Shown here in pieces: positions 3,178 through 62,656 of a DNA stretch of 64,000 bases. Origin of the DNA: Desulfosudis oleivorans (GTDB lineage Bacteria > Desulfobacterota > Desulfobacteria > Desulfobacterales > SURF-7); NCBI GenBank assembly GCA_020723325.1, contig DYJD01000005.1:62001-126000 (forward strand), written 5' to 3'. A program made the position numbers and the translations under genes. A model generated the notes under the pieces. That model saw nothing but the letters and a program-made list of their open reading frames with translations, was not told the DNA's origin and did not search any database. The stretch's first letter is position 1, and the number at the start of each line of letters is the position of its first letter.

Positions 3178-3981
3178 TTATCTTCCCTTGTATTGCGGCG
3201 CCCGCTTTTCTTTGAAAGCCCTGGGTCCTTCCTTGGCGTCCTCGCTCAGAAACACCGGGATGGCGATTTCCATTTCCTTGGCCAGACCCTCGTTGAGTGT
3301 CAGGCCGATGTTGGTGAGCACGGCCTTTTTGATGGCGGTCACGGCCATGGGGCCGTTGGCCACAATGAGCCGGGCATAGCGCTCGGCTTCGGTCAGCACC
3401 TGATCCCGGGGCACGACCTTGTTGACAAAGCCGTGGCGCAGGGCTTCCTCGGCGCTCATCAGTTCACCGGTGAGCAGGATTTCCATGGCCCGGGCATAGG
3501 GGAGCTGGCGCGGCAGCTTCACGCTGGAGCCGCCCATGGGGAAAATGGACCATTTGACTTCCTGCAGGCCGAATCTGGCCCCTTCGGCCGCCACCCGCAG
3601 ATCCGTGGAATAGAGCAGTTCCATGCCGCCGGCAATGGCCTGGCCGTTGACCGCGGCAATAACCGGCTTATACAGCTCAAAATCCCGCAGCAGGGCCTTC
3701 TGGGCCAAGAGCGGATTGCGCTGAATCTGCTTATCCGCCTCGGTTTCCGGTTTCTTGGCGCCGGTGAACAGGGGGATCAGTTTGCCGAGATCCGCACCGG
3801 AACAAAAGGTCTGATCCCCGGCGCCGGTGATGATGGCGCAGCGCAGGTTGCCGTCGTCGCGGTAGTCTTCCCAGGCTTTAAGCAGTTCCAGGACCGTTTC
3901 CGGATCAATGGCATTATGGGCCTCAGGCCGGTTAAGGGTCAGATAGGCAATGCCGTCTTTTTTTTCGTAGATGAGAGCCAT
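3178..3981 (-). CDS. Enoyl-CoA hydratase/isomerase
   Basis: A 267-residue crotonase-family protein. The oxyanion-hole region is FCSGADLG and GGMELLYSTD. Both hydratase glutamates are kept: one in GLQEVKWS and one in RAMEILLTGE, so water addition to a 2-enoyl-CoA is plausible. The start has AGGAGGTATC in front of ATG. It lies about 80 bases from the AOR gene and 76 bases from the DUF35 gene; both gaps carry short AT-rich direct repeats (AATTCCTAATTC, TCGAAATCCGAAA), so it may be a separate insertion into the operon. Substrate unknown. Confidence 0.92.
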   Translation of the reverse strand: MALIYEKKDGIAYLTLNRPEAHNAIDPETVLELLKAWEDYRDDGNLRCAIITGAGDQTFCSGADLGKLIPLFTGAKKPETEADKQIQRNPLLAQKALLRDFELYKPVIAAVNGQAIAGGMELLYSTDLRVAAEGARFGLQEVKWSIFPMGGSSVKLPRQLPYARAMEILLTGELMSAEEALRHGFVNKVVPRDQVLTEAERYARLIVANGPMAVTAIKKAVLTNIGLTLNEGLAKEMEIAIPVFLSEDAKEGPRAFKEKRAPQYKGR

Positions 3982-4057: not shown

Positions 4058-4522
4058 TCAAACATTCGGTTCAAAATGATCGATATCAAGAATGGTGTTG
4101 GTGGTTTTAGGACTGAATACCGCCTTTACCTTCATGCCGATTTTCACCTGATCAGGGTCGACGCCTTCTAAAATATGAACCATGGGGCTGTCCGCCCCTT
4201 CCAGCCGGATCATACCCAGCACAAACGGCGCCTTGCGGGGCAGATGTCTGTCATCATAACGCACCACGGTGAAATTGACCACTTCGCCTCCGGATTTCAA
4301 ATCCACCCAGTTGTTACGGATGTCCTCCATACAGCGCTCGCAGGTCTGGCGGGGGGGCACGAAAACCTTGTTGCAGCGTTTGCATTTCACCCCCATGATC
4401 TTTTGCTTGTCCCGCAGGGTGGTGATGAAGGTGCTGCCCACCCGTCCTGCAAAATAGGTGTACGGCAAGGCCAGTTTGCCTTCGATGGTGTAGCAATCGG
4501 TAGTGTCAAAACCTGGTTTCAT
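4058..4522 (-). CDS. DUF35 OB-fold protein with zinc ribbon
   Basis: A 154-residue protein with an N-terminal rubredoxin-like zinc ribbon (CKRC, then PPRQTCERC; C-x2-C-x10-C-x2-C) followed by an OB-fold, the DUF35 architecture. Such proteins bind thiolase-fold enzymes and are needed for their activity or CoA channelling (for example BbsA with BbsB, or ChsH2 with Ltp2). It is clearly homologous to the N-terminal half of the DUF35-MaoC fusion at 11177-12076, sharing EGKLALPY, YFAG and LDIDHF. It follows the SCP2-DUF35 gene after 11 bases and belongs to thiolase module 1. Confidence 0.9.
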   Translation of the reverse strand: MKPGFDTTDCYTIEGKLALPYTYFAGRVGSTFITTLRDKQKIMGVKCKRCNKVFVPPRQTCERCMEDIRNNWVDLKSGGEVVNFTVVRYDDRHLPRKAPFVLGMIRLEGADSPMVHILEGVDPDQVKIGMKVKAVFSPKTTNTILDIDHFEPNV

Positions 4523-4533: not shown

Positions 4534-5382
4534 CTATTCGTCGATTTCGAAATATTTGATGTCGTCGATGCTGCCGGTGCGCTCCTCGGCCCAGACCGGC
4601 CGCAGGCGCGTGCCGTGCACCACCTTGTCACCCAGCACGATGCCCATTTTGACCTTGTTGAGTTGATCCGGTCGCAGCAGATGCCAGAAAACCTCTTCGT
4701 CCTTGCAACCGTCCAGCAGAACCCCGATGGCGCCGTAAGGGGTCTCCCGGGTCTCGCCCGTGAGGGGCGCCGGGCTGGCATAGTAGCAGTACTCCAGCAT
4801 GCGCATCTCGCCCTTGGGGCCGATGGGCACCCATTCCGTATTTTTGACCCGGCAGATGGCGCAGACTTCCCGGGGGGGCGACTGCAGCCGGCCGCAAACC
4901 GGGCATTTGATGGCCAGGATCTGCTTTTCCTTCAGGGCTTTCAGGAATTTCCCCATGACCGGACCGGTGGCAAAGCGCTGGTTCACGGAAATGGTGCGCT
5001 TGAGCACCAGCAGTTCCTGCTCCTGGGTGATCTTTTCCCCAGGCAGAATGAATTTGGTGAAAAAGCGGCTGGTTTGGCCGAACAGGGCGAAATCCCCCTT
5101 TACCGTGAGTTTTCGGGAAGTAAAGGCCTCCATGCCGTCGACTTTGCCTACATTCAGGCCCACAAAAGTCTTGCCGTCCATGCTCACGGTAACATCGCAA
5201 CCGGTCAATTGGTCGACTTGGGCCAATTGCATTTTGCCGTCGGCGATGGTCAGTTTCCATTTGCCGTGATCCTTGATCTCGTATCCGAAGCTCCGGGAAA
5301 CCCCCCTCGCCCCTTCGGACCGAAAACGTTCCGCCATGCTGTCGAATATATCCGTAACTTTTACGCCGAAGTATTCAGTCAT
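4534..5382 (-). CDS. SCP2 sterol-carrier domain fused to DUF35
   Basis: A 282-residue fusion. Residues about 1-115 form an SCP2-like lipid-binding domain (KLTIADGKMQL, TVSMDGKTFVGLNVGKVDGM, KLTVKGDFAL). Residues about 145-282 form a DUF35 domain with zinc ribbon CPVCGRLQSPPREVCAIC. The C-terminal half is closely related to the C-terminus of the 1006-residue ligase fusion at 12102-15122 (PPREVCA, LSGETRETPY/LTGETRETPY, YFEI). It overlaps the upstream thiolase-fold gene by 8 bases, which supports a complex. The likely role is to present a hydrophobic acyl-CoA to the neighbouring thiolase-fold enzyme. Confidence 0.9.
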   Translation of the reverse strand: MTEYFGVKVTDIFDSMAERFRSEGARGVSRSFGYEIKDHGKWKLTIADGKMQLAQVDQLTGCDVTVSMDGKTFVGLNVGKVDGMEAFTSRKLTVKGDFALFGQTSRFFTKFILPGEKITQEQELLVLKRTISVNQRFATGPVMGKFLKALKEKQILAIKCPVCGRLQSPPREVCAICRVKNTEWVPIGPKGEMRMLEYCYYASPAPLTGETRETPYGAIGVLLDGCKDEEVFWHLLRPDQLNKVKMGIVLGDKVVHGTRLRPVWAEERTGSIDDIKYFEIDE

Positions 5383-6586
5383 GTTTCCCCCCCTGCCAGT
5401 TTAATTCCTTCTCGAGTAAGAACAACACGGTCCACATGGTCCCGCCGAATGAAGAGGCCATGGCATGCTTCACCGGCCGTGGAATCTGATGGGGCCCCGC
5501 ATCCCCCCGCACTTGCTTGGCGGCCTCGGCCACCCGGATCATGGCCGTGGCGCCGATGGGATTGGCGGCGATGACCCCGCCGGAAGGATTGATGGGTATC
5601 TTCCCGTTGATCATGATCTCCTTCTCTTCCACCAGCCGGATATGTTCATCCCCGCTGAGCAGGAAGAAATCCCGGATCCAGTCCAGGCCCCACCAGGCGG
5701 ACGGATCGTACATTTCAAATACATCGAAGTATTCCAAAGGATTTTCAATACCGTTGCGTTTGTAGAGGGTTTCCGCCGCAAAACGGTGGGTGGTTTCATT
5801 GGGGTAGTAATTGTTGCACAGATTAAGGGTCTCCTCCCGGTGCACGGTGATGTGATCCCGGATCCAGACCGGATTCTTGGAAATCTTTTTGGCCTTTTCC
5901 TCGGCTGAAAAAATCATGGCGCAGGCCCCGTCCGATTGGGAGCACATGTGGATCAAACGCAGATCGCCGATGAGGGGCGGCGAGTTCTTCATCAAGTCTT
6001 CCAGTTGATCCCATTCCAGGCCGAAGGCCCGGTGGGAGTTGGGATTCAGGCAGGCATGCTTGTCCATGATGATGCGATACATCATGGCAGCCCGCCGGGC
6101 CCGGTCCCCGCCGAATTCGGCGATGACCTTCACCGCCGCCGAATCCGTGAGGGCGCCGGATTGCAGTTTGCGGGCCCATAAGGGGTCCGCCATGTTGGTG
6201 ATGCCGCCGGTGGTGTGGCCCTCCTGGAGTTTTTCAAAGCCGATGGCCAGCACCGTATCGTACATGCCCGAAGCCACCAGGTTGTCCGCGGCCGCCACCA
6301 GGGTGCCGCCGGTGGTGCCGCCGGTGGTGAGGCGGAAGGCGTTTTTGCCGAATGCGCCGGTGCCCAGAGTGTGCCACATATCCGGCTGGTGCACCATTTC
6401 AAAAAGTTCCATGTTGCCGTGGACCACGCAATCAATGTCGTCCATGGTGAGCCCGGCATCGTCCAGGGCTTGACGCACGGCCTCGTGTATCATCTCGGGC
6501 TGGTTGACATCCTCCCGGTGACTGGAAAACTTGGTCTCGCCGATGCCTACAATGCCCACATTTCTGTTCTTTTTCCGATTTCCCAT
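5375..6586 (-). CDS. Thiolase-fold protein, type A, lacking the catalytic Cys (module 1)
   Basis: A 403-residue SCP-x/lipid-transfer-type thiolase homologue. The motif that normally carries the acylated cysteine reads RLTTGG (85-90), with Leu86 at the Cys position. The C-terminal GHP motif reads ANP (341-343) and the second Cys position is Ser379. Tyr293 sits in EMYDP, where thiolases usually have a His. Claisen chemistry therefore looks lost. Ltp2, another Cys-less thiolase homologue that works with a DUF35 partner, cleaves steroid side chains by retro-aldol reaction using tyrosines. The start with AGGGGAGACAT is preferred over one 21 bases upstream. The gene is highly similar to 15189-16367. 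Confidence 0.88.
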   Translation of the reverse strand: MGNRKKNRNVGIVGIGETKFSSHREDVNQPEMIHEAVRQALDDAGLTMDDIDCVVHGNMELFEMVHQPDMWHTLGTGAFGKNAFRLTTGGTTGGTLVAAADNLVASGMYDTVLAIGFEKLQEGHTTGGITNMADPLWARKLQSGALTDSAAVKVIAEFGGDRARRAAMMYRIIMDKHACLNPNSHRAFGLEWDQLEDLMKNSPPLIGDLRLIHMCSQSDGACAMIFSAEEKAKKISKNPVWIRDHITVHREETLNLCNNYYPNETTHRFAAETLYKRNGIENPLEYFDVFEMYDPSAWWGLDWIRDFFLLSGDEHIRLVEEKEIMINGKIPINPSGGVIAANPIGATAMIRVAEAAKQVRGDAGPHQIPRPVKHAMASSFGGTMWTVLFLLEKELNWQGGKHD

Positions 6587-6596
6587 ATGTCTCCCC

Positions 6597-7742
6597 TTAT
6601 CTCTCAAGGATTATCACCGCATGATGTTGTCCGGCCGGGCCGGTGGTGCCGTGGGCCAGGGCCCTGCCGGCATCCGCCACCTGGCGCTCCCCGGCCTCGC
6701 CGCGCAGTTGCAGGACCGCTTCCGTGGTCCGGGCCAAACCGCCCAGCATGATGGGATTGCCGTTCAACATGCCGCCGGAAAGGTTCACATGCTGCTTGTC
6801 CGGGCCGCCGGCATCGATCCAGGCCGCCCCCCGGCCGTCTTCCGCAAGGCCCACACCCTCGGCCCACAGGGGCAGTTGATAGGCGATGCTGTCATTCAAT
6901 TCCACAATGTCAAAGGCGTTTTGGGGGGCCGTGATCCCGGCCATGCGAAAAGCATAGGCCGCGGCTTTTTTCAGGGCAAAGTTGGCGGTGAGGTCCCGGT
7001 CCCCCAGGAAATAGCTGTCCATGCAACTGCCGAAGCCGGTGATCCATACGGGTTTGTCGGTGAATTCCCGGGCGCGCTCCTCGCAGCACAGCAGCATGGC
7101 CACGGCCCAGTCCGTCACCGGATACCAGTGCATTTCCCGGATGGGGTCGGCCAGCAAGGGGCTTTTGAGCACGGCCTCTTTGGTAACAGGCTCGTTATCA
7201 CGGGCATAGGGATTTTTGGCCCCGTTTTGGCGGGCCCGGGCCACGATCTCGGCCAGATGGCCGTCTCCCAGGCCGGATTTCTGCATATAGGCCCGGGCCT
7301 GGAAGGCGGCGGCGTTCAGGTAGTCCAGTCCCAGGGGCCGGGTGTAAAAGGGGTCAAAGGCCAGGTTGGTGCACATGCGCCGGCTTTCGGACTGGGACTC
7401 CTTGCAATGGCCGGTCACCAGAATCACGTCATCATGACCGGACAGGATGGATGCCATGGCATAGCCCAGGGCATTGGCCCCGTCCTGGGCCGCCTTTTCC
7501 TCGCCGCGGTAGTGGGCACCCACCACATCAGTCATGCCATTGTCGGAAATGGTACGGGCGTCGAACACATCGTCGGAACAGGTGACGATGTTGCGGATAC
7601 CCTTGTCCATGTCAAAGGTCACTCCGGTCTCACGGATCACGGCTTCCACGCATTCGAACAGCATGCTCTGAAAGCGCTGATACCAGATGTCCGCTTGGTT
7701 CTTGATTTGCGCAACGGCGCAAACGGCAACTCGTTGGCTCAT
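6597..7742 (-). CDS. Thiolase-fold protein, type B, lacking the catalytic Cys (module 1)
   Basis: A 381-residue thiolase-superfamily protein. The usual Cys motif is replaced by EEKAAQDGANALGYA. The C-terminal HP-type motif reads NGNPIMLGG, and the last motif HGTTGPAGQHHAVIIL has no Cys. It therefore lacks all standard thiolase catalytic residues and may form a heteromer with the type A partner 10 bases downstream. The start has AAAGGAGATCTT upstream. It is a clear paralogue of 16380-17552 (shared NMSGGML/NLSGGML, LQLRGEAG, GHCKESQ). Confidence 0.87.
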   Translation of the reverse strand: MSQRVAVCAVAQIKNQADIWYQRFQSMLFECVEAVIRETGVTFDMDKGIRNIVTCSDDVFDARTISDNGMTDVVGAHYRGEEKAAQDGANALGYAMASILSGHDDVILVTGHCKESQSESRRMCTNLAFDPFYTRPLGLDYLNAAAFQARAYMQKSGLGDGHLAEIVARARQNGAKNPYARDNEPVTKEAVLKSPLLADPIREMHWYPVTDWAVAMLLCCEERAREFTDKPVWITGFGSCMDSYFLGDRDLTANFALKKAAAYAFRMAGITAPQNAFDIVELNDSIAYQLPLWAEGVGLAEDGRGAAWIDAGGPDKQHVNLSGGMLNGNPIMLGGLARTTEAVLQLRGEAGERQVADAGRALAHGTTGPAGQHHAVIILER

Positions 7743-7872: not shown

Positions 7873-9708
7873 TCAAAATTTATACTTTCCGGATGTAATC
7901 TCTGCATACAGGTTCGAATCCAGCGGAACATAGTCATTCCGGCCCGGCAGCAAGGCGAAAATCGGTTCTTCAGTGGGACCGGATTCAAAGCCTTCTTGAC
8001 ACAGCACGGCTTTCTTCACCTTAAAAGTGGGCGTGACCTCGATTTCCTGCTTGAAACGGATGAACTTGGGCACGGCATAGGCCGGCAGGGTTTTATGCAG
8101 CGCCTCGGCCAGGACCTTGAGATCGAAATCTTCCGGCGGCACCGCCGGCACAATGGCGGCCATGCCGGCCCGGCCGTCGGTTTTGGGAATGGCCACGCCA
8201 TAGACCGCGGCCTGGTTCACCTGGGGCAGGGTGTTGATCACCTGCTCCACTTCGGTGGTGGAGACGTTTTCACCTTTCCAGCGGAAGGTGTCCCCCAGCC
8301 GGTCGCTGAACTGGATGTGGCGGAAACCCAGATCCCGGACAAAATCGCCGGTGTTCAACCAGACATCCCCTGGTTTGAAAACATTACGCAGGATTTTTTT
8401 GTCCGTGGCCTGCTTGTCCGTATAACCGTGAAAGGGCACTTTTTCCGAAATCTCCCCTATCAAAATGCCGGACTCGCCCTTGGCCACCCGCTGCAAAAAG
8501 CCGTCCGGCCCGGGGATCATGGTCTCGTTTTCCACGTCGTATTTGACGATGGCAAAGGGCGTGAGGCACATGCCCACGGTGTTGTCGACATTGAGCATGT
8601 TCACAAAGGCAAAACCGAATTCCGTGGCGCCGTACAGCTCGGAGATTTGCTTGATGGCGAAACGGTTTTTAAAGGTCTGCCAGATGTCCGGCCGCAAACC
8701 GTTGCCGATGCATTTTTTCATGGGGTTGTTCTGATCATCCGGCTGGGGAGGCTGATGCAGCAGGTAACGGCACATCTCGCCGATGTAGACAAAGGCCGTG
8801 GCCTTGAATTTTTGGGCGTCTTTGAAGAAGTTTGTGGCCGAAAACTTGCGGCGGATGGCGAAAGCCGAGCCCATGGAGGCGGCCACGGTCCAGCCCACGC
8901 AAAAGCCGGTGGTATGAAATAAAGGCAAGGGACAGTACAGAACATCATCAGGAGTCATGTTCATGATCAGGCGGCCCAGCCCGAACATGGCGGAAACCCA
9001 GCGCCGGTTGCCCATGATGGCCGCCTTGGGCAGGCCGGTGGTGCCGGAAGTGAAGATATAGCAGATGGGATCTTTGGCCTGCACCGCGGAGGTGGTGGCT
9101 GGATTTTCCACGGGTTTTCCTTTGGTGACGGTGTTCAGGTTTTTATAGCCCGGCGGCATGGGCCGTTGCCCCTGATCCGGCACATAATACAAACCTTCTT
9201 TTCCGGATAATCCCATGGCATGTCGCACCTCCTCAAAGGCCTGCACCAGCTCTTCGCCGATGACATACAGTTTACCTTTGGACACGCTGAGGCTGTGGAG
9301 CAGCACCTTGTCCCGCTGGTTGGTATTGATCAGGGCGGCGACGGCGCCGATCTTGGCAAAGGCCCCGGCAACGATCAGAAATTCCGGGCGGTTCTCCAGC
9401 ATGACTGTGACCGTATCACCTTTTTTAATGCCTTGCGAGATAAAATAGTGACAATGGCGATTGATAGCTTCATTCAGCTCCTGATGGGTCAGGCGCCGGT
9501 CCTCAAACAACACCGCGGTCTTGTCCGGATACAGCCGTGCGTTTTCCTCCAGTTTCCACCCCAGGGAAATATGGTCATCGTCCTTGACCCCCAGGGCGGA
9601 TTTGATGGATTTCACCACCGAGGGTAGTCGGGACATTTTTTCAGCCAGTCCGGGCAAAAGATCCCAGAACTTCAACAGGTCATTGTTATTGGAAGCAACT
9701 GCGGTCAT
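7873..9708 (-). CDS. FATP/very-long-chain acyl-CoA synthetase-like ligase
   Basis: A 611-residue adenylate-forming enzyme activating a carboxylic acid to its CoA thioester. The P-loop is FTSGTTGLPKA. The motif FRWKGENVSTTEV is the signature of the FATP/VLACS group, which includes enzymes for very long-chain and bile acids. The start at 9708 is preferred (AAGGAAATCCGTC upstream); an in-frame GTG at 9741 would overlap the dehydrogenase stop. It is cotranscribed with the acyl-CoA dehydrogenase immediately upstream. A bulky, hydrophobic acid substrate is inferred. Confidence 0.92.
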   Translation of the reverse strand: MTAVASNNNDLLKFWDLLPGLAEKMSRLPSVVKSIKSALGVKDDDHISLGWKLEENARLYPDKTAVLFEDRRLTHQELNEAINRHCHYFISQGIKKGDTVTVMLENRPEFLIVAGAFAKIGAVAALINTNQRDKVLLHSLSVSKGKLYVIGEELVQAFEEVRHAMGLSGKEGLYYVPDQGQRPMPPGYKNLNTVTKGKPVENPATTSAVQAKDPICYIFTSGTTGLPKAAIMGNRRWVSAMFGLGRLIMNMTPDDVLYCPLPLFHTTGFCVGWTVAASMGSAFAIRRKFSATNFFKDAQKFKATAFVYIGEMCRYLLHQPPQPDDQNNPMKKCIGNGLRPDIWQTFKNRFAIKQISELYGATEFGFAFVNMLNVDNTVGMCLTPFAIVKYDVENETMIPGPDGFLQRVAKGESGILIGEISEKVPFHGYTDKQATDKKILRNVFKPGDVWLNTGDFVRDLGFRHIQFSDRLGDTFRWKGENVSTTEVEQVINTLPQVNQAAVYGVAIPKTDGRAGMAAIVPAVPPEDFDLKVLAEALHKTLPAYAVPKFIRFKQEIEVTPTFKVKKAVLCQEGFESGPTEEPIFALLPGRNDYVPLDSNLYAEITSGKYKF

Positions 9709-9737
9709 GACGGATTTCCTTTCTTCTATATCTTCTA

Positions 9738-10901
9738 TCACAACATCATCTTGGAAATAATTTCTTTCATAATCTCGCTGGTGCCGCCGCCGATGGACAG
9801 GATGCGGTTGTCCCGGTACAGGCGTTCCACCAGATACCCGCGGCTGAAGCCGTAGCCGCCGAAGATCTGTACGGCATCATAGGTCACCTTGTCGCTCACG
9901 CTGCAAGCGAAATTCTTGGCCATGGACACCTGCTTGACCTGGTCCACTCCGGCGCCGATCTTGGCCGCCACCCTATAGGTAAACTCCGTGCTGGCCTCCA
10001 GCAAGGTGGCCATGTCCACCAGTTTGTGGCGGGTGACCTGATACCCCAGGATGGGCTTGCCGAAGACCTGGCGCTCCTTGGCGTATTTCATGGCTTCCTC
10101 CAAGGCCATACGCGCGGTCATGTTGGCCATCACTGCCAGGGACAAGCGCTCGGCCTGGAAGTTGATCATGATGCCGTAGAAGCCCTGGTTCTCCAAGCCG
10201 ATCAAATTGGCGGCCGGCACCCGGCAGTTGTCAAAAAAAAGTTCGGCCGTGTCCGAGGCCCACCAGCCCATTTTCTTGAGCTTGTTGGAAACGGAAAAGC
10301 CCGGGGTGTCGGTCTCGATGACCAGCAGGCTGATGCCGTGGGCGCCTTCGCCGCCGGTGCGCACGGCGCAGGTGATCTGGTCAGCCCGACAGCCGCTGGT
10401 GATGAAGGTCTTGCTGCCGTTGACGATGTAGTGATCCCCATCGCGCACGGCGGTGGTCTTGAGATTGGCCACATCCGAGCCGCCCGAGGGCTCGGTGATG
10501 GCCAGGGCCGCGATTTTTTCGCCGGCCAGCACCGGGGCCACGAATTTGCGTTTCTGCTCCTCTGTGCCCAGTTTCAGAATGGGCGGCAGGGCGATGTTGA
10601 GGGAACCCAGGCCGGCGGCAAAACCGCCCGAGCCGGAGCGCATCAGCTCCTCGCATACGGCGATCTGGTAAAAAACATCGCCCGGCGTGCCGCCGTACTC
10701 CTCAGGATAGCCGGTGCCCAGAATGCCCACATCCGCGGCCTTGCGGTACATCTCCCGGGGGAATTCGCCGGCTTCCTCCCACTCGTCGATATAGGGTTTG
10801 ACTTCCTTATTGATGAATTCACGCACCGCCTTGCGCACCATGTCATGGGACTTGGTGAAATACTCCTGGCAGGTGGTCTGGGTGTTGAAATCAAAAGACA
10901 T
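9738..10901 (-). CDS. Acyl-CoA dehydrogenase
   Basis: A 387-residue acyl-CoA dehydrogenase that introduces a 2,3-double bond with FAD and passes electrons to ETF. Typical motifs are [44 protein letters not shown] and [12 protein letters not shown]. The Glu of the medium-chain enzyme (YEGTSQ) is Gly here, but a Glu is present in FQAERLSLA, the position used by isovaleryl-CoA-type enzymes; a branched substrate is compatible. Upstream (10902-11176) is repeat-rich non-coding DNA. Confidence 0.93.
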
Positions 10902-11176: not shown

Positions 11177-12076
11177 TTATTCCGGCAGCGGCACAGGCGG
11201 CATTACCAAAGCCGTGCCTTCCGCCACCAGTTCATCCTTCTGGTTGGTCCAGCGCAAAGCCATGCGCACCCAGCGGCGTTTTTCCAGCTTCTCCACGACT
11301 TCCCCCACGGCGGTGATGGTGTCGCCGAAATAAGTGGGGGCCTTGAAGCGCACCGTAATCTCCAGGGCCACGGTGCCCAGACCCGGCAGTTTCATGCCCA
11401 AAACCGGCGCGATCAGGCTCTGGGGCAGGGCCCCGTGGGCAATGCGCGTGCCGAAGGGTGTGCGTTTGGCAAACTCCTCGTTCAGGTGCATGGGATTGAA
11501 GTCGCCGGAAATCCCGGCAAACAGGTAGACGTCGGTCTCGGAAATGGTCTTGGTAAAGGAGGCTGACATGCCGATTTCCAGCTCGTCATAGGTGTAGCCC
11601 ATTTCCATCTTGGGTTTTTCCGCCATTGGTTTGAAATGGTCGATATCCAGGATGGTGGCAGTGGTGTTTTTGGCAAAAACCGCCTGGACCTTGAGACCGG
11701 TTTTCATCTTGGTGAGGGGCACGCCCTTGATGATGTGGGTGATGGGTGTGTCCGCGCCGTCCAGCTTGATGAGCCCCAGAATATAGGGCGGCTTCACCGG
11801 TTGATGGGGTTCTTCATAGCGGACGATGGTGAAGCCTGTGACCACACCGCTGTTTTTCACTTCCACCCAGTTCTGGGAGATATCCTCAAAACAAACCTCG
11901 CAGGTGGAACGGGGCGGCACGAATACTTTCTTGCATTTTTTGCATTCCAGGCCCTTGATTTTCTTCTCGTCCCGCAAGGAGATGAGGAAACGGCTGCCGG
12001 TGCTGCCGGCAAAATATTGATACGGAAGGGCGAGCTTGCCTTCAACGGTGAAACAATTGTCTTTTGCTGTAGTCAT
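11177..12076 (-). CDS. DUF35-MaoC hydratase fusion protein
   Basis: A 299-residue fusion. Residues about 1-155 are a DUF35 zinc-ribbon/OB-fold domain (CKKCKKVFVPPRSTCEVC). Residues about 165-299 are a MaoC-like hot-dog hydratase with the full hydratase-2 signature AGISGDFNPMHLNEEFA and AHGALP. Mycobacterial ChsH2 joins the same two domains in the opposite order; it hydrates a steroid-17-propenoyl-CoA and delivers it to the aldolase Ltp2. The likely job here is hydration of an enoyl-CoA and hand-over to the thiolase-fold pair. The DUF35 half is paralogous to 4058-4522. The start has AAGGAGAAACC upstream. Confidence 0.92.
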   Translation of the reverse strand: MTTAKDNCFTVEGKLALPYQYFAGSTGSRFLISLRDEKKIKGLECKKCKKVFVPPRSTCEVCFEDISQNWVEVKNSGVVTGFTIVRYEEPHQPVKPPYILGLIKLDGADTPITHIIKGVPLTKMKTGLKVQAVFAKNTTATILDIDHFKPMAEKPKMEMGYTYDELEIGMSASFTKTISETDVYLFAGISGDFNPMHLNEEFAKRTPFGTRIAHGALPQSLIAPVLGMKLPGLGTVALEITVRFKAPTYFGDTITAVGEVVEKLEKRRWVRMALRWTNQKDELVAEGTALVMPPVPLPE

Positions 12077-12101: not shown

Positions 12102-15100
12102 TCAGTCGATGATCTCAAAATATTCGATGTCCGTAATGGCACCCACCCGTTTCTCGCTCCAGACCGGTCTGACCCGCACCCCGCGTTTGGCCCGGTCCCG
12201 GTCCGAGGCTTTGAGCTCATGCCACATGGTTTCGTGGTCCTTGCAGCCGTCCAGGAGGAAATGGGCGGAGACATAGGGGGTTTCCCGGGTCTCGCCGCTC
12301 AATGGATCAGGGCTGGCATAGTAGGTGATGTCGGCGATGGAAAGCACGCCTTCCGGACCAACTTCCACCCACTCGTCGCAGCGCACCACGCATTCGGCGC
12401 AGACTTCCCTGGGCGGCACTTGCAACCGGCCGCATTCCGGGCATTTGTTGGCCAGAATCTTTTTATCCTTGAAGGCATTGAGGAATTTACCCATGACCGG
12501 TCCACTGGAGAACTTCTGGGGGATGGACAGGATCTGGCGTTTGACGATGAGTTCCTCAGCCTCTACGGCCTGTCCGGCTGCCGAAGGCGGCGTGTACTTT
12601 TTAAAGAACTTGGTGGCCTTGGTGAGCAGCCCCAGATCCCCTTCCACCTTCAGTTTGCCGGAAGTAAAAGCGGTCATGCCATCCAGCTTACCCAGGGTGA
12701 TGGCGATCCAATCCTTGGCATCGCAGGTGGTGGTGACATTGGGGCTGTGCAGGCCGGTCTTGACCTGCACCTTGCCGTCGGCCACGCACACGGTCCACTC
12801 CCCGCCGCCGGTGCCCTGGATGATATAGCCGTAATTGGCGGTGATGCCCTGGACTCCCTCGGGATTCACCCGGGATTCCATGGTGCCGAAAATGTCGGCC
12901 ACGGTCACCTGGGGGGCCGCGGCCGGCGGTGTGTATTTCTTGAAGAACTGGGTGGCCTTGGTGAGCAGTCCCAGGTCCCCTTCCACCTTCAGTTTACCGG
13001 AAGTAAAAGCGGTCATGCCGTCCAGCTTGCCCAGGGTGATGGCGATCCAGTCCTTGGCGTCAATGCTGGTGGTGACATTGGGGCTGTGCAGGCCTTCCTT
13101 GACCTTCACGGTGCCGTCGGCCACGCACACGGTCCACTCGCCGCCGCCGGTGCCGCCGATTTTATACCCGTAATTGGCGGTGATGCCCTTGACCCCGTCC
13201 GGATTCACCCGGGACTCCATGGTGCCGAAGATGTCGGCCACGGTCACTTCCGGCGCCGGGGCCGGGGGCTGGTATTTGCGGAAAAAGCCCGTGGCTTTGG
13301 TGAGCAGGCCCAGATCGCCCTCCACCTTCAGCTTACCCGAGGAGAAGGCGGTCATGCCGTCCAGCTTGCCCAGGGTGATGGCGATCCAGTCCTTGGCGTC
13401 GATGGTGGTGGTGACATTGGGGCTATGCAGGCCTTCCTTGACTTTCACCGTGCCGTCGGCCACGCACACCGTGTATTCACCGCCGCCGGTGCCGGTGATC
13501 TTATACCCGTAATTGGCTTTGATGCCGGCCACGCCCTCGGGAATCACCCGGGACTCCATGGTGCCGAAAATATCGGCCACCGTGGCTTCCGGTTTTTTCT
13601 CCTTGGGTGCGCCGTTCAAGCCCCAGACCCGCAATGTTTTCTTGAGTACTTTGCCGATGGGGCTCCTGGGAAAATCCCCTTCCAGGATTTCCACGTATTT
13701 TGGCACCTTGAAGCTCGCCAAATTCTTTTTGCAGAATTCGATGACTTCCGCTTCCGTGAGGCTGTCGTCCCGGGCCACCACGAACACCTTGACTTCCTCG
13801 CCCATGGTCTTGTCCGGCACGCCCACGGTGGCCGCCTCGGAGATTTTGGGATGGGTGGCCAGCAGATTGTCGATCTCCTTGGGGTAGATGTTCTCGCCGC
13901 CGCGGATGACCATATCCTTTTTGCGGTCCACGATGAAGATGTAGCCGTCGGCATCCTTGATGCCCACATCGCCGGTATGGAGATAGCCGTTCACGATGGT
14001 CTTGGCGGTCTCTTCGGGCTTGTTGTAATAGCCCTTCATGATATTGTCGCCCTTGATGACGATCTCGCCGGGTTCGTTGATGCCCAGTTCCTTGCCGTCA
14101 TCATCCACAATCTTGATTTCCTGGCCGGGCAGGGCCAGGCCGATGGACCCCACCTTGCGCACCCCTTCCCGGGGGTTGATGGTGCTCACGCAGGTCCCTT
14201 CGGTAAGACCGTAGCCTTCCACAATGGGGATCTTGAAGGTTTCTTCGAAACTCCGCATGGTCTCCTGGGTCAGGGGCGCGGCGCCACAGATACCGAATTC
14301 CATGGAGCTGAGGTTGTATTTCTGGCGGCTGGGGTCGGACAGCAGGATCTGATACACCGCCGGAACAGCGGACCAGAAGTTGACCTTATATTTTTCCACC
14401 ACTTCCCAGAATTCGCTGGCGCTGAACTGCTTGCGCAGGATGATATGATGGCCTTTCTGCATACTGGAGGTGCAGGTGAGCATGGCGTTCACATGAAAGA
14501 GGGGCAGGAAGCACAGGAAGTTCTTTTTCTCCTTGGTGTTCAAAGCCCCATTGATCCCGTTGGAGTCGCTTACCACGTTTTTGTGGGAGAGCAGTACGCC
14601 CTTGGGGTTGCCGGTGGTGCCGGAAGTATAGAAAATATAGGCCGTATCTTCAGGATCACAGTCGCACACCACCTTCTTGTCATCACCGTCTTTCAGCAGA
14701 TCAGCAAAGGCAATGTGGCCTTCCATGGGTTTTTCGCTGACTTCGATAATGGTTTTGAGGTGCGGGCATTTGGCCTTGATCTCCTTGAAAATGGGCAGGT
14801 ACTGATCTTCCACGATCAGACCGCAGCCTTTGGAGTCGTTGAGCAGGTACTCCACTTCCGGCCCCTTCCACCAGCCGTTGATGGGCCCTGCCACAGCGCC
14901 GATCTTGGCAATGGCAAAATAAGAGATCAGGGTCTGGGGGCTGTTCTGAACCCAGACATGGATGAAATCTCCTTTTTTGAAGCCCTGTTTCTTCAACGCA
15001 TTGGCCAGAATATGGACGCGTTTTTCCAAATCGCCGTAAGTGATCGTTTCATCATAAAACGTCATGTACGGATCTTTTTTGAATTTTTTGACGGCATCAT

Positions 15101-15122
15101 CAAAATAGTTGCCAAGGTTCAT
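12102..15122 (-). CDS. AMP-dependent acyl-CoA ligase fused to three SCP2 domains and DUF35
   Basis: A 1006-residue multidomain protein. Residues about 1-510 are an adenylate-forming acyl-CoA ligase with P-loop YTSGTTGNPKG (165-175), YLHTGDVGIKDADGY and PIGKVLKK. Residues about 511-849 are three near-identical tandem SCP2-like lipid-binding domains of 113 residues each (TVADIFGTMESRV, VCVADGTVKVKEGLHSPNVT, AITLGKLDGMTAF). Residues about 860-1006 are a DUF35 domain with CPECGRLQVPPREVCAEC. One chain thus carries CoA activation, lipid carriage and docking to a thiolase-fold partner. The C-terminal part is paralogous to the SCP2-DUF35 protein at 4534-5382. The start has AGGAGGCAATC upstream. I do not recognise this architecture from characterised proteins. 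Confidence 0.93.
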   Translation of the reverse strand: MNLGNYFDDAVKKFKKDPYMTFYDETITYGDLEKRVHILANALKKQGFKKGDFIHVWVQNSPQTLISYFAIAKIGAVAGPINGWWKGPEVEYLLNDSKGCGLIVEDQYLPIFKEIKAKCPHLKTIIEVSEKPMEGHIAFADLLKDGDDKKVVCDCDPEDTAYIFYTSGTTGNPKGVLLSHKNVVSDSNGINGALNTKEKKNFLCFLPLFHVNAMLTCTSSMQKGHHIILRKQFSASEFWEVVEKYKVNFWSAVPAVYQILLSDPSRQKYNLSSMEFGICGAAPLTQETMRSFEETFKIPIVEGYGLTEGTCVSTINPREGVRKVGSIGLALPGQEIKIVDDDGKELGINEPGEIVIKGDNIMKGYYNKPEETAKTIVNGYLHTGDVGIKDADGYIFIVDRKKDMVIRGGENIYPKEIDNLLATHPKISEAATVGVPDKTMGEEVKVFVVARDDSLTEAEVIEFCKKNLASFKVPKYVEILEGDFPRSPIGKVLKKTLRVWGLNGAPKEKKPEATVADIFGTMESRVIPEGVAGIKANYGYKITGTGGGEYTVCVADGTVKVKEGLHSPNVTTTIDAKDWIAITLGKLDGMTAFSSGKLKVEGDLGLLTKATGFFRKYQPPAPAPEVTVADIFGTMESRVNPDGVKGITANYGYKIGGTGGGEWTVCVADGTVKVKEGLHSPNVTTSIDAKDWIAITLGKLDGMTAFTSGKLKVEGDLGLLTKATQFFKKYTPPAAAPQVTVADIFGTMESRVNPEGVQGITANYGYIIQGTGGGEWTVCVADGKVQVKTGLHSPNVTTTCDAKDWIAITLGKLDGMTAFTSGKLKVEGDLGLLTKATKFFKKYTPPSAAGQAVEAEELIVKRQILSIPQKFSSGPVMGKFLNAFKDKKILANKCPECGRLQVPPREVCAECVVRCDEWVEVGPEGVLSIADITYYASPDPLSGETRETPYVSAHFLLDGCKDHETMWHELKASDRDRAKRGVRVRPVWSEKRVGAITDIEYFEIID
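12574..13590 (-). repeat. Three tandem 339-bp coding repeats (SCP2 domains)
   Basis: Three head-to-tail units of 339 bases (about 13590-13252, 13251-12913 and 12912-12574) inside the ligase fusion gene. They are very similar at nucleotide level, with identical blocks such as CAGCTTGCCCAGGGTGATGG, so the amplification looks recent or homogenised. Each encodes one SCP2 domain. Confidence 0.9.
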
Positions 15123-15188: not shown

Positions 15189-16367
15189 TCAGGGCGCTTC
15201 CCGCGTGAGCAGCACCAGCACCGTCCACATGGTCCCGCCGAAGCCGGAGGCCAGGGCCTGGTTGACCTTCTTTTTCACCTGATGGTCGCCGGCGTCCCCC
15301 ATGATCTGCAGGGCTGCCTCAGCCACCCGCACCATGGCCGTGGCGCCGATGGGATTGGAAGCAGTCACGCCGCCGGAAGGATTCACCGGAAAACTTCCGT
15401 CAATGGTGATCTCGTCGTTTTCCACCATTTTAAGATGCGCGTCGCCTTCCAGCAGCAGGAATTCCCGCAGCCAGTCCAGGCCCCACCAACTGGAAGGATC
15501 GTACATTTCAAACATGTCGATTTCCTTGCGCGGGTTCTTGATCCCGTTTCTTTCAAACAGGGTCAGGGCCGCATAGCGATGGGAAGTCATGTAAGGCGCG
15601 TCGCCGAAAATGCAGAAGCTTTCTTCGCGGTGCACGGTGATGTGATCCTTGACCCAGGCCGGTTGCTTGCATAAAGCTTTGGCTTTTTCCTCGGAAGCAA
15701 AGATCATAGCGCAGGCCCCGTCGCTTTGGGAGCACATGTGAATCATGCGCAGTTCACCCACCAGGGCCGGTGAGCTTTTAGCCAGATCGTCGGCCTGATC
15801 GAACTCCAGGCCCAGACGGCGATGGGCATGCTTGTTTTTCATGGCGTGTTTATCCATGATGATGCGATATTTCATAGAGGCTTTTTTGGCGCGTTCCTCG
15901 CCGAACTCGTTGATCACGTCCGCGGCGGTCATGCCGGTGAGAGCCCCGGTCTGCAACTGCCGGGCCCACAGGGGGTCGGCCATGTTGGTGATGCCGCCGG
16001 TGGTGTGGCCTTCCTGAAGTTTTTCAAAACCCACGGCCAGGACGATGTCATGCAGGCCAGAGGAAACCAGATAATCCGCCACCCCCACCAGGGTGGCGCC
16101 GGTGGTGCCGCCGGTGGTCACCCGCAGGGATTCCTTGCCCAGGGTCCCGCTGCCTAGGGTATGCCATAGATCCGGCTGATGCACCATTTCAAATAATTCC
16201 ATGTTGCCGTGAACCACGCAATCAACATCCGCCATGGTGATGCCGGCGTGCTTGAGGGCCGCCACCACAGCTTCGTGGATCATCTCGGGCTGGTTGACTT
16301 CCTCCCGATGACTGGAATATACGGACTGTCCTACGCCGATAATGCCGACATTTCGATTCTTCTTCAT
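15189..16367 (-). CDS. Thiolase-fold protein, type A, lacking the catalytic Cys (module 2)
   Basis: A 392-residue paralogue of 5375-6586. The Cys motif reads RVTTGG (82-87) with Val83 in place of the cysteine. The C-terminal motif NPSGGVTASNPIGATA has Asn instead of His. EMYDPSSWWG keeps the tyrosine seen in the module 1 protein. It probably partners the type B protein encoded 12 bases upstream and the two DUF35 fusions encoded downstream. The start has GGAGGCGCAAGC upstream. Expected role: C-C bond cleavage of a beta-hydroxyacyl-CoA (Ltp2-like), or a structural subunit. Confidence 0.88.
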   Translation of the reverse strand: MKKNRNVGIIGVGQSVYSSHREEVNQPEMIHEAVVAALKHAGITMADVDCVVHGNMELFEMVHQPDLWHTLGSGTLGKESLRVTTGGTTGATLVGVADYLVSSGLHDIVLAVGFEKLQEGHTTGGITNMADPLWARQLQTGALTGMTAADVINEFGEERAKKASMKYRIIMDKHAMKNKHAHRRLGLEFDQADDLAKSSPALVGELRMIHMCSQSDGACAMIFASEEKAKALCKQPAWVKDHITVHREESFCIFGDAPYMTSHRYAALTLFERNGIKNPRKEIDMFEMYDPSSWWGLDWLREFLLLEGDAHLKMVENDEITIDGSFPVNPSGGVTASNPIGATAMVRVAEAALQIMGDAGDHQVKKKVNQALASGFGGTMWTVLVLLTREAP

Positions 16368-16379: not shown

Positions 16380-17552
16380 CTAATCCCGCGCCAAAATCGC
16401 GACTGTATGAAACTGCCCGGCCGGCCCCATGACACCATGGGCCAATGCCCTTTTTGCCTTTGCCACCTGACGATCGCCGGCCTCCCCGCGCAACTGCAGG
16501 GCGGCTTCGGCGGCCCGCACCAGACCGCCCAGGATCATCGGATTGCCGGCCAGCATGCCGCCGGACATATTCACGTGCTGTTTGTCCAGATTGCCGGCTT
16601 GCATCCATTCCGGACCTTTGCCTTCGTCGCACAGGCCCAGGCCTTCCAGCCACATGGGGAGCTGATAGGCGTATTGGTCGGATACTTCCAGCAGATCAAA
16701 AGCCTTGCGGGGGTCTTGGATGCCCGCGCGCTTATAAGCCCGGGCCGCGGCCTGTTTCAGGGCCGCATTGGAGGTGAGCTCCCGATCCCCTAGGAAAAAG
16801 CTGTCCATGCTGTTGCCCACGCCGGTGATCCATACGGGCTTGTCTGTGATTTTCACGGCGATTTCCTCGGCGGCCAGGATCATGCCCACGGCCCCGTCGG
16901 AAACCGGGTAGGCATGCAATTGCCGGATGGGATCAGCCAGCATCGCGGAGTTTAAGACTTCCGCGGCGGTCACCTGGGGTAGTTCTTTGATATTCGGATT
17001 CAGGGCGGCATTTTTACGGGCGCGCACCACGATATCGGCAAGCTGCTGGTCGGTCAGACCGGCCTTGGCCCCATAGGCCTGGGCCTGCAAACCCGCGGCG
17101 GCGCAGAAATCCAGCCCCACCGGCCGGGTGTAGAAAGGATCAAAGGCCACATGGGTCACCATGTTGCGGCTCTGGCCCTGGGACTCTTTACAGTGCCCCA
17201 TGATCAATACGATGTCGTTGTGGCCGGACTGAATGGCCGCCAGCCCATAGTAAATGGCCTGCAAACCCTCCTGGGCCACCTTTTCCTCGCAGCCGAAATG
17301 CCCGCCCAGCACGTCGGTCATGGCATTGTTGGAAATCGTGCGGGCGTCGAACAGGTCATCGGACACGCTGATGGTCATGTTGATGCCGGGTTTTTTCTTT
17401 TTCTGCTTTTGCAACTTGCGCGCAAAATCAACACCGGTCTGCTTCCTGAGGGAATCCAGGACATCGATGGCCATTCCCTGGAAGCGCTCCTGCCATTTGT
17501 TTCGTTCCCATGTTGTTTGCGCCACAGCGCAAATTGCCACTCGTCTTGCCAT
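16380..17552 (-). CDS. Thiolase-fold protein, type B, lacking the catalytic Cys (module 2)
   Basis: A 390-residue paralogue of 6597-7742. The stretch EEKVAQEGLQAIYYG aligns with the thiolase CSSGLQAI block, with Ala at the Cys position. AGNPMILGG replaces the GHP motif. The start at 17552 has GGAGG at 17559-17563, six bases away; earlier in-frame starts would run through the neighbouring gene. A basic insert near residues 60-70 (LQKQKKKKPG) is absent from the paralogue. It is probably a heteromeric partner of the type A gene. Confidence 0.87.
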   Translation of the reverse strand: MARRVAICAVAQTTWERNKWQERFQGMAIDVLDSLRKQTGVDFARKLQKQKKKKPGINMTISVSDDLFDARTISNNAMTDVLGGHFGCEEKVAQEGLQAIYYGLAAIQSGHNDIVLIMGHCKESQGQSRNMVTHVAFDPFYTRPVGLDFCAAAGLQAQAYGAKAGLTDQQLADIVVRARKNAALNPNIKELPQVTAAEVLNSAMLADPIRQLHAYPVSDGAVGMILAAEEIAVKITDKPVWITGVGNSMDSFFLGDRELTSNAALKQAAARAYKRAGIQDPRKAFDLLEVSDQYAYQLPMWLEGLGLCDEGKGPEWMQAGNLDKQHVNMSGGMLAGNPMILGGLVRAAEAALQLRGEAGDRQVAKAKRALAHGVMGPAGQFHTVAILARD

Positions 17553-17563
17553 TGTCATCCTCC

Positions 17564-18127
17564 TTAAAACCCGTGGGTTTCGGTGAAACAGTTCCAAAAA
17601 TCTCCGGCCTTGACGGCCCGGATGATCAAATCCTTGTCCCGCATGCAATCCATTTCAATCCAGGCCCGGCCGCACATGAGGCGGGTGTGGGCGTCGTCGG
17701 TGGCGACTTTGTGAAATGGAATCTCCGGGGTCTCATATTCCTTGGTGCGAAAACCTTTGGTGGTGATCTCCACCGCGTCCAGGGGAATCCGCTCGGCCAC
17801 GGTCATGATGCGATCCTTGACCTTGGCAAAGGGCAGATCCAGTTCCGATGGATGATTGAAAATATGCAGCACTTCCCTTTCCCCCTGGATACGATTCACA
17901 TGCACATAGCCCCGTTCAAACACCGTCATCTCCACTCCTGTAAAGATGATCATGTCCGTGCGCAGATCCTGCACGGCCGCATAGCAGTTGGAACGGATGA
18001 GGTAGTCATGGTCCGTGAGGGCGATGAAGTCAAAGCCCAGGCCCTCGTAGACCCGCACCACCTCGGCGATGGTCAGTTCGCCGTCCGAGCAGGTGGAATG
18101 CACATGCAACGCGCCTTTCAGGTGCAT
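17564..18127 (-). CDS. PHP-domain metal-dependent phosphoesterase-like protein
   Basis: A 187-residue PHP-superfamily protein. Metal-binding signatures are HVHS (8-11), SDG (14-16), TDHD (38-41), a Glu in FTGVEMT and a late DDAH. The family hydrolyses phosphoesters or phosphates of small metabolites; the length fits a minimal PHP domain. Its start overlaps the end of the TetR gene by 10 bases, so the two are coupled. A role in this catabolic operon is not obvious; signalling or repair of a phosphorylated cofactor are guesses. Confidence 0.85.
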   Translation of the reverse strand: MHLKGALHVHSTCSDGELTIAEVVRVYEGLGFDFIALTDHDYLIRSNCYAAVQDLRTDMIIFTGVEMTVFERGYVHVNRIQGEREVLHIFNHPSELDLPFAKVKDRIMTVAERIPLDAVEITTKGFRTKEYETPEIPFHKVATDDAHTRLMCGRAWIEMDCMRDKDLIIRAVKAGDFWNCFTETHGF

Positions 18128-18807
18128 GCGGTTTCCTTGAACAGATTGTTGATGCCGCCCACAATAAAGGCCACCGCATCCCGGCCGATGGCGCTGAAAT
18201 CCCGGCTGCGGTCCTGCCAGAACAGGTATTCATAGGCCACCCGTTCATAAATTCCCATGATGCTTACGGCGATCACCTCGGCGGAAAACCGGCTTTTGTA
18301 ATTCGAACCGAGATTGTCGCTCATGCGCTGCAGGGCGCTGAGCACATCGGCGGTGAGCTTGTCGAAGATTTCCTTGCGCCGTTCCTCCACCACCGGGCTC
18401 TGGCCCACGGATTCGCGGAAAAGGATGGCCACCTTCTCCGGATAGCGCCCGCAAAACTCCTGAAAAAAGATCCGGCCGGCCCGTTCAAATCCGGTCAGGG
18501 AGGCCCCAGCCTTCTTGAACTCATCGCCCAACAAGGCCCGCAGTCGAAAACCGATTTCGTCCAGCAACTGCACCAGCAGGTCCTCCTTGTTTTTGAAGTA
18601 GAAGTAAACCGCTCCCACCGATACTTCGGCAGCATCGGCAATACGCTCCATGCTGGTCTTGTGAAAGCCTTCCCGGGCGAACAGGGTTTCCGCCGCGCTC
18701 AAGATGGTCTGATAGCGCTGCTCCCGCTCCCGCTGCCGGCGCTGGGCGGTCTTGGAAAGCCCCGGTTCCTTTTTTTCAGCCGCGTCTTTTTCCCTGGTTT
18801 TCAACAT
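18118..18807 (-). CDS. TetR-family transcriptional regulator
   Basis: A 229-residue TetR/FadR-type repressor. The N-terminal HTH (TSMERIADAAEVSVGAVYFY, then FKNKEDLL) follows a basic lead. The C-terminal half would bind an effector, by family analogy an acyl-CoA. It lies inside the operon, sharing one base with the stop of the upstream acyl-CoA dehydrogenase gene (TAATG). It is a good candidate autoregulator of this operon and perhaps of the divergent one; the intergenic inverted repeat 21218-21321 is a possible target. Confidence 0.93.
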   Translation of the reverse strand: MLKTREKDAAEKKEPGLSKTAQRRQREREQRYQTILSAAETLFAREGFHKTSMERIADAAEVSVGAVYFYFKNKEDLLVQLLDEIGFRLRALLGDEFKKAGASLTGFERAGRIFFQEFCGRYPEKVAILFRESVGQSPVVEERRKEIFDKLTADVLSALQRMSDNLGSNYKSRFSAEVIAVSIMGIYERVAYEYLFWQDRSRDFSAIGRDAVAFIVGGINNLFKETACT

Positions 18808-19943
18808 TACGACAAACGTGCTCCTAAACTTTCATCACCGATTTTCACCCGGGCGATTTCCGTTGAAGTCCCCGCGATCTGACCGTATTTGGCGCAGCGA
18901 TAGGCCCTTTCCGCCACATTGCCGGACATGAAACCGGCCCCGGCCAGGATTTGTAGTGCGTTGCTGGCCACTTGCTCAGCGGATTCGGTGCAGAAGACTT
19001 TGGCGCACAGGGTCATGGATTCGGCTTCTTTGGGATTGTCGCTGGCGATCCAGGCCGCCCGGTATGCAAAGAGCTGGGAGGTCTGGACCAGGGTCAGCAT
19101 TTCGGAAAGTTTGAAGCCCACTTCCTGATAGGCGATCACCGGCCGGCCGCCGCTTTTATGGGTCTTGGCGTAATTCTTGGCCGCCTCCAAAGCGGCTTTC
19201 ATCAACCCCAGGCTGGCCCCCAGGATCACCTGGTTTTCCCACATGCGCAACAGCCCCAGGCTGGCCTGGCCTTGGGCCGGAATCAGCACCTGGGATGCCG
19301 GTATCGTGCAATCCGCAAGCCGCAGGCCGGCCATGGCCGTGCCCTCATAGCCCAGGGTGGCCATGCGGTTTTCCAGCACCAGGCCTTTGGTGTTTTTTTC
19401 AACCAGAAACAGGGCCGGCTTGCCGTCCAGCATGCCGGCCACCGCCAGCCAATCGGCGATGGGGCCGTTGACCACATATTGCTTGTTGCCGTTGATGACC
19501 ACACTGTCGCCGTTTTTCACGCCGGTGGTCTTTAAGGGCTCATTCTCCACGTTCAGAGCATCCTCGGACAAGGCCACGGCGCCCACAAGTTTGCCGGCCA
19601 GGAGGGGTGTCAGCCATTTGGCTTTCTGATCGGCATTGCCCCAGGTTTGAATGCTCCTGCCGAACACCCGGGTGCTCATTTCCACGGATAGAAACAGGGA
19701 CGGTGACAGGGCTGCCAGCACTTCCATGGCGCCCATGAGGCTGAGTAGACCCAAGTCCTTCTGAGGGGTGATTCCCAAACTCAAATACGGCGTTTCCGCC
19801 AGTTTGGCTAAAGCCCCACGGGTGGTCTGGCCGATGGCAGCCGTGTCCTCCTTTTCCGGATCATTTGCAGATGTGAATGCCTGCATCAGCTCGTGCAATT
19901 GCACAAAAAATGTAAATTCCTTTTCAGTGAAATCGTAATTCAT
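18807..19943 (-). CDS. Divergent acyl-CoA dehydrogenase subunit
   Basis: A 378-residue acyl-CoA dehydrogenase homologue with unusual motifs. The conserved ERxxFG segment reads THKSGGRPVIAYQ, and the C-terminal loop is IAGTSTEIARV. A Glu aligns with the isovaleryl-type base (MWENQVILGASLGLM), but the flanking Arg is Asn. FAD contacts may be partly lost. With the orthodox dehydrogenase gene just upstream (50 bases) it resembles the paired alpha/beta dehydrogenases of mycobacterial steroid catabolism, where one subunit is degenerate. Start 19943 (MNYDFTEKE) is chosen because AAGGGGAATAAAACC precedes it. Confidence 0.88.
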   Translation of the reverse strand: MNYDFTEKEFTFFVQLHELMQAFTSANDPEKEDTAAIGQTTRGALAKLAETPYLSLGITPQKDLGLLSLMGAMEVLAALSPSLFLSVEMSTRVFGRSIQTWGNADQKAKWLTPLLAGKLVGAVALSEDALNVENEPLKTTGVKNGDSVVINGNKQYVVNGPIADWLAVAGMLDGKPALFLVEKNTKGLVLENRMATLGYEGTAMAGLRLADCTIPASQVLIPAQGQASLGLLRMWENQVILGASLGLMKAALEAAKNYAKTHKSGGRPVIAYQEVGFKLSEMLTLVQTSQLFAYRAAWIASDNPKEAESMTLCAKVFCTESAEQVASNALQILAGAGFMSGNVAERAYRCAKYGQIAGTSTEIARVKIGDESLGARLS

Positions 19944-19993
19944 GGTTTTATTCCCCTTACTTTCCACGGCCGATATGCAAATCGCCGCTGTGG

Positions 19994-21647: not shown

Positions 21648-21723
21648 GATCTCGAATGAATTTTAAACGCACATGCGATTCATTATGGAATCATCAATCA
21701 ATAATTCAATTTGGAGGTGTCAC

Positions 21724-22584: not shown

Positions 22585-22636
22585 GCCTGTGATATATGGC
22601 CGCAGGATGAAAAAACCGATTAAGGAGGAATTACCA

Positions 22637-23626: not shown

Positions 23627-23628
23627 TC

Positions 23629-49650: not shown

Positions 49651-49717
49651 GAGCTTCTCCATGTGCCGAACGTAGCATAAAAACTGAATAATGAAAATCT
49701 AACAAAATGGGTTAACA

Positions 49718-62655: not shown

Positions 62656-62656
62656 A

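Follow-up and report, generated by a model that had tools for sequence, protein, structure and literature searches.

A DUF35-MaoC fusion lineage in Desulfobacterales: a probable PhaJ-type hydratase and its likely origin in a duplicated cassette

What a DUF35 domain does in front of a MaoC hydratase, and how the two came to share one chain, is the question raised by an open reading frame of Desulfosudis oleivorans. The frame encodes a 299-aa protein and lies in the window, that is, the whole stretch of 64,000 nucleotides analysed here (contig DYJD01000005.1, positions 62,001 to 126,000). Pfam placed zf-ChsH2 at residues 36-65 (E 5.9e-6), OB_ChsH2_C at residues 70-134 (E 4.4e-12) and MaoC at residues 174-271 (E 1.3e-20), all above the curated cut-offs. 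The ORF check and Pfam thereby bore out the position (11177-12076) and the order of DUF35 before MaoC given in the initial annotation, which named no strand, and this order is the reverse of that in ChsH2 (MaoC-DUF35), to which the protein had been compared. ChsH2 was nevertheless the wrong yardstick. Shy, a proteobacterial DUF35-MaoC steroid side-chain hydratase described in JBC in 2024, already has an N-terminal DUF35 and a C-terminal catalytic MaoC, according to the accessible text of its description (PMC11321319; PDB 8vwr, 9myr). The DUF35-MaoC order itself is thus already known from Shy.

By using a scan of genome contigs, the fused frame was found in 24 of 70 related loci (L007-L030), at 71-84% identity and with its flanking genes kept, so that the fusion is neither chance nor an assembly fault; most of the other relatives among the 70 loci match the MaoC half alone. 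The frame in L023 is short by 16 residues at a contig edge, and a contig edge also truncates the one in L031. The collection from all loci comprises 26 distinct fused sequences, and the named records among them belong to Desulfobacterales or to unspecified deltaproteobacterial or proteobacterial assemblies. With so many recurrences of the fused frame, a merged-gene artefact was ruled out. The full fusion is present in 4 of the 297 genomes of the phylum, all four with the domain order seen in the window, and none of the 463 matching records of a plasmid search covers 80% of the fused protein in one place.

The fused gene belongs to the first of two related cassettes (Table 1), ordered thB1-thA1-[ligase-SCP2x3-DUF35]-[DUF35-MaoC], with no separate MaoC gene within it; the second reads thB2-thA2-[SCP2-DUF35]-DUF35. 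Between the two cassettes, identity amounts to 57% for thB, 68% for thA and 59% for the last DUF35 domains, and the order thB-thA-[SCP2..DUF35]-[DUF35-MaoC]-ACAD1 is kept across relatives.

Table 1. Coordinates in the window of the fused gene, its domains and its neighbours.
Feature	Position	Strand	Basis or remark
DUF35-MaoC fusion	11177..12076	(-)	299 aa; Pfam domains and fused homologues
DUF35 zinc ribbon and OB fold, residues 36-134	11675..11971	(-)	Pfam; Cys4 in 26/26 fused sequences
Linker, about residues 151-162	11591..11626	(-)	Low pLDDT and gap between domain envelopes
MaoC, predicted PhaJ-type (R)-hydratase domain, residues 163-287, dyad D192/H197	11216..11590	(-)	Pfam, PhaJ match, motif GDFNPMH
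CoA ligase, 3 SCP2 and DUF35 in one protein, 1006 aa; first DUF35 of cassette 1	12102..15122	(-)	Pfam
thA1, SCP2-thiolase-like; Gly at nucleophile position, YDPS replaces HDCF	15189..16367	(-)	Pfam, alignment
thB1, thiolase-like partner; degenerate motifs (SDQY, GNPMI)	16380..17648	(-)	Pfam, alignment
PHP-domain protein and TetR regulator before cassette 1	17564..18807	(-)	
ACAD2 and ACAD3, two further acyl-CoA dehydrogenases, upstream	18807..21136	(-)	
ACAD1, acyl-CoA dehydrogenase adjoining the fusion	9738..10901	(-)	
Second acyl-CoA ligase-like gene	7873..9741	(-)	
thB2, cassette 2	6597..7742	(-)	Pfam
thA2, cassette 2	5375..6607	(-)	Pfam
SCP2-DUF35, cassette 2	4534..5382	(-)	Pfam
Stand-alone DUF35, cassette 2	4058..4522	(-)	Pfam, DUF35 tree
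Crotonase-type enoyl-CoA hydratase/isomerase after cassette 2	3178..3981	(-)	
Aldehyde:ferredoxin oxidoreductase-like protein	1155..3095	(-)	

Several features of the surroundings deserve a record of their own. Relatives of the 1006-aa protein differ in how many SCP2 domains are called, and in cassette 1, as in the related cassettes L169-L171, the small PHP-domain protein (17564-18127 in the window) immediately precedes thB. Divergent from the operon, on the plus strand, a beta-keto acid cleavage enzyme (BKACE) and a two-subunit CoA-transferase are encoded at 21673-24396, and their relatives sit inside the cassette-2 cluster in L169-L171. A third unit, with one DUF35 and one thiolase-like gene, lies beside crotonase and acyl-CoA dehydrogenase genes at the window end (62245-63919). 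The aldehyde:ferredoxin oxidoreductase-like protein (AOR) suggests a possible fate for an aldehyde product; its linkage was seen in the window and at the edge of L026 only, with none beside L194, L195 and L197 in the stretches examined, which weakens it as a conserved partner. A 349-aa ORF at 39413-40462 matches the AOR-like protein over its C-terminal residues 271-622 alone and is perhaps a truncated copy. At 48685-50587, a DNA methyltransferase-like ORF is divergent from one resembling a restriction endonuclease, as read by eye from the translations.

The MaoC half carries the Asp/His dyad D192/H197 within the motif GDFNPMH, which is present in all 26 fused sequences, and its nearest solved relative by sequence is PhaJ (5cpg, E 3.3e-29), a stand-alone protein without DUF35. 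An AlphaFold2 model of the fusion reached a mean pLDDT of 87.2 and a pTM of 0.50, a value too low for the placement of the domains relative to each other to be read from the model. Its MaoC half matches PhaJ 1iq6 with Z 20.5 and rmsd 1.1 over 132 residues, above the Z of 12.0 for the Shy hydratase crystal structure 8vwr, and this better match would point to a pocket of the usual (R)-hydratase kind and not to the opened steroid cleft of Shy. Therefore, the MaoC half is probably a PhaJ-type (R)-specific 2-enoyl-CoA hydratase, as predicted from sequence and model. The DUF35 half fits ChsH2-DUF35 6ok1 (Z 13.3) and Shy-DUF35 9myr (Z 12.6), and it also matches DUF35 chains of condensing complexes; the rows of the fold library are mostly MaoC, so a family missing there proves nothing.

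The zinc ribbon of the DUF35 half holds four cysteines (C45-x2-C48-x10-C59-x2-C62), a C-x2-C-x10-C-x2-C pattern kept in 26/26 fused sequences, and its zinc stretch, CKKCKKVFVPPRSTCEVC, contains no His. The site of CtShy is Cys3His1 in contrast, while the five Shy-like proteins compared here have both the Cys4 pattern and a His. Between the two domains, pLDDT falls below 50 at residues 153-157 alone. The gap between the domain envelopes is 12-14 residues in the 26 fused sequences versus 38-51 in the five Shy-like proteins; the linker modelled for CtShy is given as 26 residues in the available part of PMC12329534, a measure that differs from the envelope gap.

The two halves were placed in separate phylogenies, with alignments of fewer than 140 columns for both domains. 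The closest DUF35 in the window is the stand-alone gene at 4058-4522, as the initial annotation had proposed: identity to the fused half is 59%, compared with 30% for the gene at 12102 and 23% for the gene at 4534. Fused rows form one group in both DUF35 trees (SH-aLRT 93 in the tree that took 151 of 156 rows; 100/90 in the one that took 99 of 156, from which mostly SCP2-DUF35 and long-branch rows were dropped). Their sister comprises the stand-alone cassette-2 DUF35 genes, the one at 4058 included, and three DUF35-BKACE fusions, the whole making a 51-row group with support 99 in the 151-row tree. The thA tree, made by a quick method and holding the window's own thA2 twice (L006), splits in the same manner, with 17 cassette-1 rows against 17 cassette-2 rows, among them the DUF35-BKACE loci. 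Such fusions occur at L170 (12451-13872), L171 (7269-8696), L083, L091 and L093, and in L169 DUF35 and BKACE are separate neighbouring genes at the place where L170 and L171 have the fusion. Members of one DUF35 lineage have been joined on separate occasions to MaoC and, in other Desulfobacterota, to BKACE.

In a first MaoC tree, the fused rows fall together with seven stand-alone rows, one of them a contig-edge fragment (L033), in a 34-row group (99/100); a further MaoC tree took 100 of 107 rows, seven long or partial rows having been dropped. The analysis neither establishes nor refutes that the fused MaoC halves by themselves form one group (AU p 0.419), and one or more fissions may have occurred. 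Stand-alone MaoC relatives adjoin a relative of ACAD1 in L034, L082, L084 and L092, just as the fusion itself does. The simplest account of these relationships would be a block duplication of a thB-thA-DUF35-DUF35 cassette, after which, in one of the copies, the last DUF35 and a stand-alone MaoC gene beside it became one frame.

The chemistry to which the hydratase might contribute depends on its thiolase-like neighbours. Read from the alignment, Gly87 of thA1 aligns with Cys85 of an archaeal thiolase and its MYDPS with VHDCF; Tyr289 is present, the third position of the YDxx motif is Pro, and thB is without thiolase active-site motifs. Lacking the nucleophilic Cys, thA should therefore not perform normal thiolysis. 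The aldolase Sal has a Gly at the nucleophile position as well, with a YDCY motif and a catalytic Tyr and Cys, and the position of the thA Pro is held by this Cys in Sal and by a His in Ltp2, in the accessible account (PMC12329534); the cleavage chemistry of thA may thus differ. Our best guess for thA1/thB1, by analogy with Sal, is retro-aldol cleavage, with the Pro as a warning.

These elements can be assembled into a route that we hold to be moderately probable, together with the duplication origin outlined above. A CoA ligase would activate an acid, acyl-CoA dehydrogenases would convert it to the enoyl-CoA, and the MaoC domain would add water to give a (3R)-3-hydroxyacyl-CoA, which thA1/thB1, without a thiolase nucleophile, would cut by a retro-aldol reaction, releasing an acyl-CoA together with a carbonyl product. 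The DUF35 half would act as an adaptor, binding thA1/thB1 in the way that the DUF35 of Shy binds Sal and that of ChsH2 binds its aldolase (PMC11321319, in the part available), and such docking would hold the hydratase beside the enzyme that uses its product.

The same parts could be run in the biosynthetic direction, with MaoC as a (3R)-hydroxyacyl-CoA dehydratase or supplier and thA/thB condensing like HMG-CoA synthase/thiolase or PhlABC. Condensing complexes contain DUF35 too (PMC2954200, PMC6392133, as far as their accessible text goes), and the match of the fused DUF35 half to their chains agrees with it, but thA has lost the Cys that the HMG-CoA synthase/thiolase and PhlABC complexes keep, and the conserved neighbourhood, with its three acyl-CoA dehydrogenases, CoA ligases, TetR regulator and SCP2 modules, has a catabolic look; we consider this direction unlikely. 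Less probable still is that the fusion serves co-expression or stability only, with DUF35 either not docking on thA/thB or docking without benefit to flux. Such a reading draws on the Shy-Sal system, in which hydration did not require DUF35 and the test for channelling was negative (PMC11321319, PMC12329534, in the portions available). Against it stand the physical binding of aldolases by the DUF35 domains of Shy and ChsH2, the adjacency of DUF35 and thiolase genes in 51 complete cassettes, a count that left out runs without DUF35, and the separate fusions of DUF35 to MaoC and to BKACE.

Descent from the known fusions is a poorer explanation than either. The idea that the protein is a Shy orthologue, that is, a steroid side-chain hydratase with a Sal-type aldolase, gains from the shared order, the dyad and the thiolase-like neighbours, and a joint group of fused MaoC and Shy was not rejected (AU p 0.0858), although unconstrained MaoC trees keep them apart. 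It was dropped on the DUF35 half, where forcing fused and Shy domains together cost 60.6 log units (AU p 0.000144). Identity to the five Shy-like proteins is 30-37% for MaoC and 22-30% for DUF35, PhaJ is a better structural match than the Shy crystal structure, the zinc stretch is without His, and the partner motif is YDPS instead of the YDCY found in neighbours at all five Shy-like loci, which makes orthology very improbable. Circular permutation of ChsH2, or an ancestor shared with it, is the reading we credit least: the two proteins have the same two Pfam domains, but Shy-like and ChsH2-like DUF35 domains fall elsewhere in the DUF35 trees, three ChsH2-like rows forming their own group (100/98) in the 99-row tree, the seven stand-alone genes (one a fragment) are nearer to the MaoC half, and the MaoC domain of ChsH2 is without the dyad (PMC11321319, in its accessible text). 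Thus, the fusion is probably independent of both ChsH2 and Shy, as far as the trees can tell. The independent origin put forward in the initial annotation appears to stand against ChsH2 and, for the DUF35 half, is strongly supported against Shy, whereas for the MaoC half independence from Shy is the favoured but less secure reading.

The inference drawn in that annotation, that convergent fusion supports channelling from hydratase to aldolase, does not follow. Shy-Sal is the characterised system closest to this one, and there a competing dehydrogenase captured 93 +/- 1% of the hydrated product; the authors concluded that there is no significant channelling (PMC12329534, in the part available). 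Recurrent fusion supports co-recruitment to one complex instead, although the shorter linker makes the question worth asking again here.

A further pattern concerns the numbers of genes. Of 51 complete cassettes, 50 have as many thiolase as DUF35 genes (30 at 2:2 and 20 at 1:1), the exception being L137 from Rhodococcus (2 thiolase : 1 DUF35); as the loci were collected by their DUF35 or MaoC matches and many are closely related, 50/51 describes a pattern and not a probability. Left out of the count were runs lying within 900 bases of the end of a contig, those lacking thiolase or lacking DUF35, and repeated thiolase ends. Outside the 51 are L017, which reads 2:0 because a split in its ligase gene leaves the DUF35 at too great a distance, and the ChsH2 loci L189 and L190, in which a MaoC gene lies in between. 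A link to the Ltp3/Ltp4/Rv3521 genes of M. tuberculosis is a possible lead; among the open-licence papers listed by a search, none was named as functional work on them.

Since the numbers match, it is conceivable, and we put it forward tentatively, that thA/thB assemble into an asymmetric heteromer whose two DUF35 sockets are not equivalent, one for the ligase/SCP2 module and one for an enzyme that handles the product or makes the substrate (MaoC here, BKACE elsewhere), DUF35 being an interchangeable plug. In the Sal and Ltp2 structures, a thiolase-fold dimer sits between two DUF35 domains (PMC12329534, accessible part). PhlABC is a counter-example in principle, as it has two types of thiolase-superfamily subunit, each homodimeric, and a single DUF35 gene and kind (PMC6392133, accessible part).

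Set beside the characterised systems, the fusion shares with Shy the N-terminal DUF35, the single catalytic MaoC at the C-terminus and a gene adjoining a thiolase-fold partner, but differs in its PhaJ-type MaoC, its DUF35 from another branch, its shorter linker and its partner, a thA/thB pair with a second DUF35 and SCP2/CoA-ligase modules. ChsH2, which works with ChsH1 and Ltp2, likewise joins MaoC and DUF35 in one chain and binds a thiolase-fold aldolase through DUF35, as the fusion would; unlike the fusion, with its reversed order and its dyad, it needs ChsH1 (PMC11321319, in the text available). The zinc ribbon, OB fold and thiolase partners are common to SSO2064, PhlB, BbsA and the DUF35 of HMG-CoA synthase/thiolase. 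Fusions of DUF35 to thiolases, Rossmann domains, SCP2 and hot-dog dehydratases were listed in the 2010 SSO2064 paper, where BKACE is absent from the accessible list (PMC2954200). A search of open-licence papers returned no report of a Desulfobacterales DUF35-MaoC fusion or of a DUF35-BKACE fusion, and the available parts of papers on Streptomyces orphan genes (PMC13118837) and benzene degradation (PMC13101534) hold nothing on a DUF35-MaoC fusion. New, as far as this search reached, are the PhaJ-type fusion lineage in Desulfobacterales together with its proposed origin by duplication of a cassette, the fusions of DUF35 to BKACE, and the equal thiolase/DUF35 gene counts.

The fusion is a second, apparently separate, case of a DUF35 in front of a catalytic MaoC, and one in which before and after are both visible: the stand-alone MaoC, the stand-alone DUF35 of the sister cassette, and the same DUF35 lineage on BKACE. 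With such a series, the idea that DUF35 is a docking plug of general use can be tested. If the two-socket arrangement were true, this plug would make the thiolase-fold core a modular anaerobic line for acyl-CoA cleavage that proceeds without 3-ketoacyl thiolysis.
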